NCBI RefSeq assembly: GCF_002286985.1
Contig: NZ_NSKC01000003.1
Location: 62,001 to 126,000 of the forward strand
Direction of reading: 5' to 3'
DNA from: Halorubrum salipaludis
Lineage (GTDB): Archaea > Halobacteriota > Halobacteria > Halobacteriales > Haloferacaceae
DNA: 64,000 nucleotides
Shown here: one piece after another, positions 4,459 through 56,318 of the stretch
How the letters are laid out: each line of letters opens with the position of its first letter
Numbering within the stretch: position 1 is the first letter of the stretch
The notes under the pieces: generated by a model
The model's input: only the letters and a program-made list of their open reading frames with translations
What the model was told of the DNA's origin: nothing
Databases searched by the model: none
Translations under genes and position numbers: made by a program

Positions 4459-4709
4459 GGAACACCTCCAAAGCCCCAGCCGCGAGGACTCGATGCGCTC
4501 GTTGCGGTCCTCTGTCGGTCGCTAGCGCTCCCTCCCTGCGGTCCTTACGTCGCGCGTCTTCGTCCTCGCGACTGTCCCTTTGAGTCCCACCCGTACCGCA
4601 CCGCGCCTCACACCTCCCCAGCCTCGTCGCTGGCGCCTTATAAGGCGCCAGCGACTCCCTCGCGCGTGCGAGTCGCGCCCTCCGGGCGCTCCTCGGCACG
4701 CGCCACCGC
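4459..4709 (-). repeat. Dispersed structured element, copy A (candidate ncRNA)
   Basis: Read on the minus strand, it opens with GCGGTGGCGCGTGCC (4709-4695). A small hairpin GCGCCC/GGGCGC follows inside a GCGCGTGC/GCACGCGC stem, then GAGGGA and a 12-bp hairpin beginning GTCGCTGGCGCC with the sequence TTATAA at its top. Next come the invariant block GAGGCTGGGGAGGTGTGAGG, then GGGACTCAAAGGGACAG. The terminal long stem is closed by CGCGAGGAC/GTCCTCGCG, and the element ends with CTGGGGCTTTGGAGGTGTT. A TATA box, TTTATAAA, lies at 4715-4722 just upstream. It fills most of the 437-bp gap between the divergent VOC and MFS genes, and no protein frame in it looks real. Confidence 0.85.
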
Positions 4710-4784
4710 AGTGGTTTATAAAGAGCCCCCCGTCGCCGTCCCCTCGCCGATCGACGACCGGCACCATTCGGGCGGTTCCGTCCG

Positions 4785-19773: not shown

Positions 19774-21456
19774 TCAGTCGTCCGCGACCGCGCCCGGATC
19801 CGCGTCCGCGGCGTCGGCGGCCGCCGCCAGCAGGCGGTCGAGCCCGTCGACCATCGCGACGACGCTGGCGCGGGTGATGTCGGCGTCGGTCGAGGAAACG
19901 CTCACGGACCGGTCGCCCCGCGAGAGGTCGACCTCGACGGTGACGACGGCGTCGGTGCCGCCCGTGATCGCGTCGACGTGGTAGGAGTCGAGCTCGAAGG
20001 AGACGCCCTCGCCGGCGCCGTCGCCGGCCAGCGCGGCCCGAACCGCCTCCAGTCCGGCGTCGACGGGGCCGGACCCGGTGCCGGAGGCGACGCGTTCCTC
20101 GTCGCCGACGCGGAGCCGGACCGAGGCCGTCGGGAGGTTCCCGCCGGAGGTGGCAGACAGGTCGACGAGCTCGACGTGTCGGTCGCGCTCGCGGCCCTGC
20201 ACGTCCTCGGTGATCGCGAGCAGGTCGGCGTCGGTGACGCGCTTCCCGCGGTCGCCGAGCTCCTTCACGCGGCTCACGACCTCGCTCAGCTCGTCGTCGT
20301 CGACCGCCACGTCGTGCTCCGCGAGGGCCGCCTTGACCCCCGCGCGCCCGGCGTGTTTGCCGAGGACGAGCCGCCGCTCGCGCCCCACCGTCTCGGGCGG
20401 GTACGGCTCGTACATCGTCCCGTCCTTCAGGGTTCCGTCGGTGTGGATCCCCGACTCGTGGGCGAAGGCGTTGGCGCCGCAGACCGCCTTGTTCGGCGGG
20501 AGCGCGACGCCGGTCGCCTCGCTCACGGTCCGGCAGAGCCGGTAGAGCCGCTCCAGTTCGACCGTGTCGACGTCGTACGACTGGTCGAGCGCGATGGCGA
20601 CTTCCTCTAGGGCGACGTTGCCGGCGCGCTCGCCGACGCCCATGACGGTTCCGTGGACGGTGTCGGCGCCCGCCTTCAGGCCGGCGTGGACGTTCGCCAC
20701 GCCGAAGCCGAGGTCGTCGTGCGTGTGGAGGCTCGTCGGGCCGCGGTCGGCGAGCCGGGAGACGACCTCCGCGGTGCGCTCCGGGTCGGCCGCGCCGACG
20801 GTGTCGCAGTAGCAGATCCGGTCGGCGCCGGCGTCGAGCCCCGCGCCGAGCAGGCGTTCGAGGTAGTCGAGGTCGGCGCGGGAGCCGTCCTCGCCGAGCA
20901 CCTCGACCCACAGCCCGTGGTCTTTGGCGTACTCGACGAGCTCGACCGTCGTTTCGACCACGTCGTCGCGGGTCGAGCCGACCTTCGTCTCGACGTGTTT
21001 GTCCGAGGCGGGGACGACGAGGTTGATCCCGTCGACGCCGCAGTCGAGCGCGTGGTCGATGTCTCGCTTCACGCCGCGGGCGAAACTCGTCACGGTCGCG
21101 TCGAGCCCCTCGTCGGCGACTCGGCGGATCGCCTCGCGTTCGCCCTCCGAGGTGCACGCCGAGCCGGCCTCGATCAGGTGCATCCCGGCCGCGTCGAGCT
21201 CGCGGGCGATGTCGACTTTCTCGGCCGGCGTCAGCGAGACGCCGGGCATCTGCTCGCCGTCGCGCAGGGTGGTGTCTAACAGCTGTACCTCGTCGAGTGC
21301 GGTGAGTTGTGTTCGGGTCAAAAGGGTGTCCGTCGGCTCGTCGGTGGGTTCGGGGCCGGTACCGCCGCGGGGCGGTCGCGCCCCGGAGTCGTTATCGTCG
21401 GAGAATTTCGCGGCCAGCCGCCGCGAGGCGACTTCCTCTATCCCCCGAACGATCAC
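19774..21456 (-). CDS. cimA: (R)-citramalate synthase / 2-isopropylmalate synthase family
   Basis: A 560-residue enzyme. The TIM-barrel opening VQLLDTTLRDGEQMPGVSLT starts near residue 57. HTHDDLGFGVANVHAGLKAG supplies the metal histidines, and a C-terminal LeuA-type allosteric domain (about 400-545) follows. In haloarchaea this family makes citramalate from pyruvate and acetyl-CoA for isoleucine. Isopropylmalate synthase is the alternative and cannot be excluded by eye. The start is uncertain. The GTG at 21456 gives about 45 hydrophilic residues before the barrel, and a TTG at 21321 would remove them. A TATA-like ACTTATCCG (21501-21509) lies 45-53 nt above the GTG and has a short leaderless frame between them. 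Confidence 0.88.
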   Translation of the reverse strand: MIVRGIEEVASRRLAAKFSDDNDSGARPPRGGTGPEPTDEPTDTLLTRTQLTALDEVQLLDTTLRDGEQMPGVSLTPAEKVDIARELDAAGMHLIEAGSACTSEGEREAIRRVADEGLDATVTSFARGVKRDIDHALDCGVDGINLVVPASDKHVETKVGSTRDDVVETTVELVEYAKDHGLWVEVLGEDGSRADLDYLERLLGAGLDAGADRICYCDTVGAADPERTAEVVSRLADRGPTSLHTHDDLGFGVANVHAGLKAGADTVHGTVMGVGERAGNVALEEVAIALDQSYDVDTVELERLYRLCRTVSEATGVALPPNKAVCGANAFAHESGIHTDGTLKDGTMYEPYPPETVGRERRLVLGKHAGRAGVKAALAEHDVAVDDDELSEVVSRVKELGDRGKRVTDADLLAITEDVQGRERDRHVELVDLSATSGGNLPTASVRLRVGDEERVASGTGSGPVDAGLEAVRAALAGDGAGEGVSFELDSYHVDAITGGTDAVVTVEVDLSRGDRSVSVSSTDADITRASVVAMVDGLDRLLAAAADAADADPGAVADD

Positions 21457-38845: not shown

Positions 38846-39105
38846 GACACCACCGAAGCCCCAGTCGCGAGGCGGGCGCACGCTCGCTGCGGTCCTCACT
38901 CGGTCGCTCACTGCGTTCGCTCTCTCGTTGCGGTCCTTGCTTCGCCTGCGCTCGCCTCGCGACTGCCCCTTCGAGTCCCGCCCCGTACCGCACAGCGACC
39001 GCACCTCACGCCTCCCCAGCCTCGTCGCTGGCGGCAATAGCCGCCAGCGACTCCCTCGCGCGTGCGACTCGCGCCCTGCGGGCGCTCGTCGGCACGCGCC
39101 ACCGC
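38846..39105 (-). repeat. Dispersed structured element, copy B (candidate ncRNA)
   Basis: Minus strand, 5' to 3': GCGGTGGCGCGTGCC (39105-39091), then hairpin GCGCCC/GGGCGC inside a GCGCGTGC/GCACGCGC stem, then GAGGGA. A hairpin GTCGCTGGCGGC-TATT-GCCGCCAGCGAC follows, its top two pairs changed relative to copy A but still paired. Next are the invariant GAGGCTGGGGAGGCGTGAGG, GGGACTCGAAGGGGCAG, and a long terminal stem closed by GTCGCGAGG/CCTCGCGAC. It ends with TGGGGCTTCGGTGGTGT. Upstream TATA-like GTTTATAAG is at 39116-39124. It lies between the rhomboid start and the aroD end, both on the minus strand. Confidence 0.87.
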
Positions 39106-39160
39106 ACCGTATTCACTTATAAACAGTCACCGCATCCGAGGGAAACGACTTATAAATGGA

Positions 39161-52748: not shown

Positions 52749-52986
52749 TTAAGAGGGGCGCCGACGAGGCCTCACACGGGAACAGCACAGCTGCAGATCC
52801 GACGCGCCGGGGTCTTTTCGCCCACGGCTTGGGAATGTAGCAGTGCGCCGACGCCTCCGGCGTCGCGGTCGGACGCCCGCGTTCGCGGGCCGTCCGGTCG
52901 GACCGCTCGGTCCGCGAGCCGTCCGTCAGCCGCGTCGCGCGGAGCCGCGGTCACGTTGCGGTTGTGCCGTTCCAACCAGATACACA
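52749..52986 (+). promoter_or_regulatory. Promoter and structured leader of rps15
   Basis: The TATA-like TTAAGA at 52749-52754 would start a transcript near 52778, leaving a leader of about 210 nt. That leader can form at least four hairpins: CGACGCC/GGCGTCG (52849-52865), GGAC-GCCCGC/GCGGGC-C-GTCC (52871-52895), GGACC/GGTCC (52900-52913) and CCGCG/CGCGG (52930-52942). Such a leader is unusual where most genes are leaderless. The region 52558-52748 holds only the nhaC promoter. Confidence 0.5.
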
Positions 52987-55238: not shown

Positions 55239-55882
55239 GCGAACGATCCGTATCCAAGAGCAGAGAACAGAAGCGCTGGTACTCCGTGCTGGCGCCCGAA
55301 CAGTTCGACCGGCAGGAGCTCGGCGAGACCCTCGCCGAGGAGCCCGACCAGGTCGTCGGCCGTACGATCACGACGACGCTGGGCGAGTTGACCGGCGACT
55401 CCGGCGCGAACAACACGAAGCTCACGTTCAAGATCACCGACGTGGGCAGCGACACGGCCTACACCGAGTTCATCAAGTACGAGCTCACGCGGGACTACCT
55501 GCGCTCGCTCGTCCGCCGCGGCGCCTCGAAGGTCGAGGCGTCGATCACGGTGCTGACGACGGACGACTACCGCATCCGCGTCCAGCCCGTCGCGCTGACG
55601 ACGAAGAAGGCCGACCGCTCGCAGGAGAAGGCCATCCGCCGCGTCATGATCGACAAGGTCCACGCGGCCGCCGAGGACCGCACCTTCGAGTCGTTCGTCG
55701 ACGCCATCGTCGAGGGGAACCTCTCGTCGGCGATCTACGGCGACGCGAAGCTCATCTACCCGCTCCGCCGCGTCGAGGTCCAGAAGCTGACGCTCGAGGC
55801 GCGCCCGTCCGAGGTCGCCGCCGAGGAGGAGACCGCCGTCGATGTCGACGCCGACGAAGTGGCCGTCGACGCCGACGAGTAA
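55235..55882 (+). CDS. rps3ae: 30S ribosomal protein S3Ae (eS1)
   Basis: A 215-residue archaeal/eukaryotic ribosomal protein near the mRNA exit channel. It begins SERSVSKSREQKRWYSVLAP, and FKITDVGSDTAYTEFIKYEL, TRDYLRSLVRRGASKVEASI and AIYGDAKLIYPLRRVEVQKL are conserved. The C-terminus is acidic (VDVDADEVAVDADE), as usual in haloarchaea. The start overlaps pcc1 by ATGA. It ends the cluster, and copy C of the dispersed element follows. Confidence 0.97.
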   Translation: MSERSVSKSREQKRWYSVLAPEQFDRQELGETLAEEPDQVVGRTITTTLGELTGDSGANNTKLTFKITDVGSDTAYTEFIKYELTRDYLRSLVRRGASKVEASITVLTTDDYRIRVQPVALTTKKADRSQEKAIRRVMIDKVHAAAEDRTFESFVDAIVEGNLSSAIYGDAKLIYPLRRVEVQKLTLEARPSEVAAEEETAVDVDADEVAVDADE

Positions 55883-55968
55883 CGCCGCTCCGAGCGAACC
55901 CGCAGTTTTCCCGTTTATAAACCGCATAGCGGCGGCGCTGACTGAGGATGGTTGTAATGGGGTCGGAT

Positions 55969-56226
55969 GCGGTGGCGCGTGCCTGCGAGCGGCGCGGAAG
56001 CGCCGCGAGCCAGCACGCGCGAGGGACGCGGTGAGCGCTCGAAGAGCGCGAACCGCGAGGCTGGGGAGGCGTGAGGCTGCGGTGCTGTGCGGGACGGGTG
56101 GGATTCAAAGGGGCAGCCGTGAGGCGGGCGCAGGTGACGTAAGCACCGCAAGGAGCGAGCACTGCGAGCGACTGAGGAGCGCAGCGAGCGTGCGCCCGCC
56201 TCACGGCTGGGGCTTCGGAAGTGTTC
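55969..56226 (+). repeat. Dispersed structured element, copy C (candidate ncRNA)
   Basis: Plus strand: GCGGTGGCGCGTGCC (55969-55983), then hairpin GCGGCGC-GGAA-GCGCCGC inside GCGCGTGC/GCACGCGC, then GAGGGA. A hairpin CGCGGT...GCGCTC-GAA-GAGCGC...ACCGCG is unrelated in sequence to that of A and B but in the same place. Next come GAGGCTGGGGAGGCGTGAGG, GGGATTCAAAGGGGCAG and a terminal stem CAGCCGTGAGGCGGGCG/CGCCCGCCTCACGGCTG, where C-G pairs of A and B have become T-A type pairs. It ends with GGGGCTTCGGAAGTGTTC. The TATA box TTTATAAA is at 55914-55921. It lies in the convergent gap between rps3ae and the GNAT gene. Confidence 0.85.
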
Positions 56227-56257
56227 ACCGTCGATTCGACAGTAGTGACTTATAAGT

Positions 56258-56301
56258 TAACGGCTGCGGATTTGGAGGTGCTTTCTCCCAAACCGCCGTT
56301 A
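56258..56301. repeat. 44-bp interrupted inverted repeat next to copy C
   Basis: Outer arms TAACGGC (56258-56264) and GCCGTTA (56295-56301) enclose inner arms GG-A-TTTGG and CCAAA-CC. The loop contains GGAGGTG, as in the 3' motif of copy A. TTATAA-type sequences flank it on both sides. It lies 17 bp from the GNAT gene end and could end that minus-strand transcript. Confidence 0.65.
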
Positions 56302-56318
56302 GATGTTTATAAACCCAC

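Follow-up and report, generated by a model that had tools for sequence, protein, structure and literature searches.

The stretch of Halorubrum salipaludis DNA analysed here (hereafter the window; 64,000 nt) contains three copies of an intergenic element, of which copies A (4466–4710) and B (38851–39106) lie on the reverse strand and copy C (55968–56220) on the forward strand; the core motif has three matches in the window against 0.02 expected by chance. On its 5′ side copy C is preceded by a gene ending at 55882 that, from its protein sequence, we take to be ribosomal protein S3ae, and on its 3′ side it is followed by a gene on the opposite strand, presumably a GNAT acetyltransferase by the same kind of naming. 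The window also holds the known Rfam leaders S15-Halobacteria (52776–52846, forward) and leuA-Halobacteria (21400–21452, reverse). Alignment of the family copies divides copy C into module X (55968–56098) and module Y (56099–56220), and its predicted fold has an energy of −143.3 kcal/mol (z −4.1). Within X, all on the forward strand, the covarying helix P1 plus HP1 spans 55975–56020 and encloses a G.A/G.A step (55987–55988 and 56007–56008) below the HP1 arms GCGGCGC (55989–55995) and GCGCCGC (56000–56006). The linker GAGGGA (56021–56026) forms the 5′ flank of HP2 (56027–56057), whose arms read CGCGGT-GA-GCGCTC (56027–56040) and GAGCGC-GA-ACCGCG (56044–56057), and the linker GAGGCTGGGGAGG (56057–56069) leads from HP2 towards Y. 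Module Y comprises GGGATTCAAAGGGGCAG, the long helix HP3 and CTGGGGCTTCGGAA, and matches the covariance model R1 with 134.9 bits. A 3′ tail at 56221–56309, assigned from the tail repeats of the family and the spacing of TTATAA, contains TTATAA (56250–56255) and one degenerate repeat of ~57 nt.

Copies A, B and C are paralogues in a large dispersed family. The element is ~250 nt long, intergenic and non-coding, and is present in ~110–125 copies in the source genome, where a DNA search recovered at least 40 copies and model R1, which covers the 3′ part (Y), gave 130 matches at E ≤ 0.01, including a few that overlap one another on the two strands. The 110 copies read from the whole source genome for comparison have a common architecture: module X begins with TGCGGTGGCGCG and continues through P1-HP1, GAGGGA, HP2 and GAGGCTGGGGAGG, while module Y consists of GGGACTCAAAGGGGCAG, the HP3 helix with several mismatched steps, and CTGGGGCTTTGGAG, with HP3 flanked by conserved G-rich strands. 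X lies 5′ of Y in the same orientation in 108 of the 110. The tail can carry up to four more repeats of the Y 3′ strand (~57 nt each); at loci L004, L026 and L030 such repeats stand in tandem after the element, and every one contains both TTATAA and a copy of the Y 3′ strand. The same hexamer occurs within 35 nt upstream of module X, mostly near −16, in 69 of 99 copies (0.34% in control windows), a position too near for an ordinary promoter if the RNA includes P1. Two-hairpin inserts of variable hairpin sequence, e.g., GAGGGACCTTCGGTCCCTC-TGACA-GCCGGCGGCGAAGCCGCCGGC, were noted within element helices and within a non-coding locus of the plasmid pNRC100 (L010, L014, L032, L034, L273 and L414).

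Of the 292 genomes of the class Halobacteria, 211 have a match to the Y model at E ≤ 1e-5, and these represent 61 of the 77 genera. Hosts include Haloarcula, Halorussus, Haladaptatus, Natronorubrum and Halonotius, and individual genomes from different genera hold 77, 72, 51 and 48 matches. In genera other than Halorubrum, Y stands by itself, forms head-to-head pairs or accompanies an inverted X. Comparison with Rfam 15 gave no match at or above the gathering score, and a literature search for the core sequence returned nothing relevant; the family is undescribed, class-wide and old. A plasmid search with copy C (7 records) had suggested that the element is confined to chromosomes, which was withdrawn when the class-wide Y query returned 42 plasmid records, usually with Y at one or two places each.

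Comparison of the copies gives good support to selection on structure. Base-pair covariation, the comparative criterion for structured RNA, exceeds both shuffled and slid controls. Among 34 source-genome copies of Y, in an alignment that was not fitted to the model, both sides have changed in 26 of 41 pairs, 96.0% of cells pair (84.5% in shuffles) and covariation scores 0.334 (0.137 shuffled, sd 0.008; 0.02–0.06 in slid controls). For 62 distinct sequences from many genera, both sides have changed in 36 of 41 pairs, with 89.9% paired (66.1% shuffled) and a score of 0.555 (0.150 shuffled; at most 0.063 when slid), in an alignment (A3) that was fitted to the model and leans towards structure. 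In both comparisons the shuffles ignore relatedness and the exchange of cassettes makes copies non-independent, such that the counts overstate the number of independent events. Dozens of different hairpins occupy the same places as HP1 and HP2, and nearly all of them pair. Across 57 distinct HP2 sequences, the two arms of one hairpin pair at a mean of 8.0 of 9 positions, compared to 6.3 when arms are swapped between copies and 4.8 when shuffled; most forms pairing below 8 have the two G.A mismatches of copy C. At least 59 of the 75 distinct HP1 forms retain the two G.A mismatches while the flanking pairs on either side alternate among C-G, G-C, U-A and A-U, and G.A steps recur in HP3 and in the HP2 of copy C while adjacent pairs swap. 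The linker GAGGCTGGGGAGG is nearly invariant among 28 aligned copies.

The same comparisons bear on which strand is selected. Helices that matter only as DNA palindromes should carry G.T and A.C mismatches equally often. With Watson-Crick pairs as the sole guide, the ungapped HP3 stems give G.T:A.C ratios of 17:3 for the source genome (p 0.001), 2:1 for the rest of Halorubrum and 27:10 (p 0.004) for genera beyond it. A count of G.U in the MAFFT alignment of the source-genome copies was neutral (23:24), which is probably due to misaligned outer stems of differing length, and predicted folding of both strands did not distinguish between them. The excess of G.T over A.C, together with the fixed G.A steps, suggests that the selected form is the sense single-stranded nucleic acid, which would most likely be RNA.

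The first-pass annotation of the window had observed that copy C carries different hairpins at the same places as copies A and B (GCGCCC/GGGCGC for the first and GTCGCTGGCG.../...CGCCAGCGAC for the second in both A and B), still pairing and with unchanged neighbours, and this description agrees with the present analysis in sequence and position, including the GAGGGA and GAGGCTGGGGAGG segments that flank HP2. Its interpretation as a compensatory replacement in C relative to A and B did not survive comparison with the wider family. The HP2 type of copy C is found in ~7 other copies of the source genome, and the types of HP1, HP2 and HP3 are not significantly associated with one another (p 0.18–0.59), even for HP1 and HP2, which are only some 20 nt apart. 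Of the 29 further Halorubrum loci examined for the site of copy C itself, 11 carry an element at the same place and in the same orientation, several of them sharing the left junction, and the hairpins differ one by one between these orthologues. In L032 the HP2 is letter for letter that of copy C while the HP1 is different, and at L042 the element that follows the S3ae gene carries HP3 in inverted orientation at its usual place. Paralogues elsewhere are more similar to copy C than its orthologues, which take only ranks 14 to 147. The recurrence of the HP2 type, the unlinked types and the differences between orthologues thus indicate that whole hairpins move between copies as cassettes, and the likeliest route would be gene conversion or a template switch that runs through the conserved linkers. 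Moves of this kind keep pairing without base-by-base compensation, and therefore the exchange of arms, which the annotation had considered the hallmark of selection on structure, is no proof of selection on its own; the selection itself is upheld by the covariation and the ~110 copies. The single-pair covariation, the retained G.A mismatches and the G.U excess argue more strongly than the exchange.

The preferred reading, to which we assign a probability of about 60%, is that copy C is one of more than 100 dispersed copies of a structured element built from exchangeable hairpin cassettes, selected as sense RNA, with a fold that serves the cell or a plasmid system. What the copies have in common are invariant unpaired G-rich segments, connected through helices that are free in sequence and keep their pairing. 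Whole-hairpin cassettes would move when recombination or template switching takes hold in the conserved segments that separate the hairpins, and the helices would act as a scaffold for the G-rich strands and G.A steps as the putative recognised parts. If the selected single strand is RNA, the sense transcript would end near GGGGCUUU. Most copies may have dispersed long ago while some still travel in a mobile carrier, and the resident fold may be kept for the cell or for a plasmid-related RNA-protein system, and not only for its own spread. Should this reading be correct, a structured element that ranks among the commonest in an entire archaeal class has so far escaped description. The family would also provide a clear example of paralogues trading entire helices as cassettes without losing the fold, which bears on the use of covariation as evidence of selection.

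A competing explanation, doubtful but with a real chance of being correct, is that of a non-autonomous mobile element whose fold serves only a single-stranded transposition intermediate handled by an unrecognised enzyme, with resident copies devoid of host function. The high copy number is consistent with this explanation, as is the differing order of X and Y in other genera. Further, ~8 copies are 94–99% identical and lie inside 430–490-bp units with inverted ends at unrelated places, which implies that a mobile carrier moved some copies recently. This putative carrier is MITE-like and recently active, and is without a known transposase. The units, with inverted ends TGATCGAY..CGGGAGTG, occur in the source genome at L301, L302, L303, L305, L282 and L283 and are up to 98–99% identical over the element; no target duplication was seen. 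Inverted ends are found on a subset of copies only, and A, B, C and most other copies are without them. Conversely, most copies are old (the median identity to the nearest copy in the source genome is 86%, and a neighbor more than 94% identical exists for only nine copies), yet 96% of cells pair in the aligned sample. No fitting transposase was found, with both Y1 and TnpB absent from a genome (G244) that has 77 copies, and the element was absent from the viral contigs searched.

Two further explanations would dispense with a selected fold or tie it to the adjacent genes. Template switching during replication could copy one arm onto the other and create complementarity without selection on structure; among the HP2 forms are several perfect DNA palindromes of 30 bp (e.g., GTCGGCCGGCGCTTATAAGCGCCGGCCGAC), and the inversion of HP3 in L042 shows that such events occur. 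An artefact of this nature is very improbable, as arm copying should erase the G.A/G.A steps, which HP1 retains and which recur in HP3 and in the HP2 of copy C, a strand-symmetric process predicts equal G.T and A.C where G.T is in excess, and the invariant unpaired segments are left unexplained. It is likewise very improbable that the element is a cis-acting signal for the genes beside it, for example a two-way transcription terminator where genes converge. Gaps between convergent genes are indeed favoured (53 of 108 copies, compared to 10 of 76 background gaps, with genes called by a simple codon score that missed some), but mere insertion tolerance also predicts this enrichment. The copies have no orientation preference (17 co-sense, 22 co-antisense), 16 lie between divergent genes, and many species do not have the element at the same locus.

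Several known systems resemble the family in part. The PATEs and IS605-type elements of haloarchaea, described in Haloquadratum (PMC3119063), are likewise dispersed, non-coding and palindrome-rich, with many copies per genome and no target duplication seen, but the X-Y element differs in its class-wide covarying fold, and this assignment was rejected since G244, with its 77 Y copies, has neither TnpB (PF07282) nor Y1 (PF01797). The absence of TnpB genes from G244, and the presence of Y close by at only 1 of 30 TnpB loci, also led to rejection of a TnpB omega-RNA. A PATE is described in the virus HRTV-DL1 (PMC10544981) and was considered as a relative, but the phage records searched gave no match to copy C. 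Bacterial REP/BIME elements with RAYT similarly have more than 100 intergenic palindromic copies, mostly old and sometimes in inverted pairs, whereas the X-Y element is far longer with an elaborate fold; REP-RAYT was rejected as the Y1-type transposase is absent from the copy-carrying genomes G244, G045, G016, G006 and G013. The inverted-end units recall MITEs, but most X-Y copies have no such ends, no target duplication was seen and the fold outlasts the ends. ROOL, GOLLD and OLE are large structured RNAs whose complex conserved folds were found by comparison and whose function is unknown. The X-Y fold is complex and conserved and was found in the same manner, but unlike these RNAs the element has many dispersed copies per genome, without a match in Rfam.

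On plasmids, Y can have distinctive neighbors. In six of eight plasmid loci inspected, Y lies ~470–560 nt from the start of a divergent gene for a ~290-aa OB-fold protein (at one of the six, L381, the gene is annotated as hypothetical only and aligns with the others), and at several plasmid loci the next gene encodes an HNH nuclease that has both zinc finger and HNH_repeat domains. The OB-fold gene is present in 176 of 292 genomes and on 154 plasmid records, including pNRC100 of Halobacterium salinarum. At 30 further loci the strip before the OB-fold gene is highly conserved, and most such strips end in a Y-like domain, often of a divergent form that the model scores weakly. This arrangement is similar to HEARO/OMEGA (IscB), in that the plasmid Y ends a long conserved non-coding locus with the OB-fold gene adjoining and often an HNH gene. 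The HNH protein scores only 17–20 bits against the IscB model (cut-off 175), however, and the chromosomal copies have no such genes adjoining; with the HNH gene found in plasmid loci only and no IscB-type nuclease, membership of OMEGA/HEARO was rejected. The plasmid loci had no match in Rfam 15. An OB-fold protein as a required partner is not supported: several Halorubrum genomes rich in Y copies are without the OB-fold gene, which is thus not needed to keep Y copies. It is conceivable, if rather unlikely, that Y is a domain of an undescribed RNA-protein system with the OB-fold protein and the HNH nuclease, and that the chromosomal relatives act in trans and diversify by hairpin swapping; such a system would combine a plasmid RNA of ~500–600 nt with tens to more than 100 dispersed relatives on the chromosomes, in roles such as decoys, guides or regulators. 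The related plasmid locus is present in the laboratory species H. salinarum (strain NRC-1, upstream of VNG_RS12910 on pNRC100) and Haloferax mediterranei (pHME132), making it directly testable. A highly conserved non-coding locus of ~500–600 nt was observed at L375, L376, L378, L383, L414 (pNRC100) and, in the source genome itself, L416 (G000:C2:105235).
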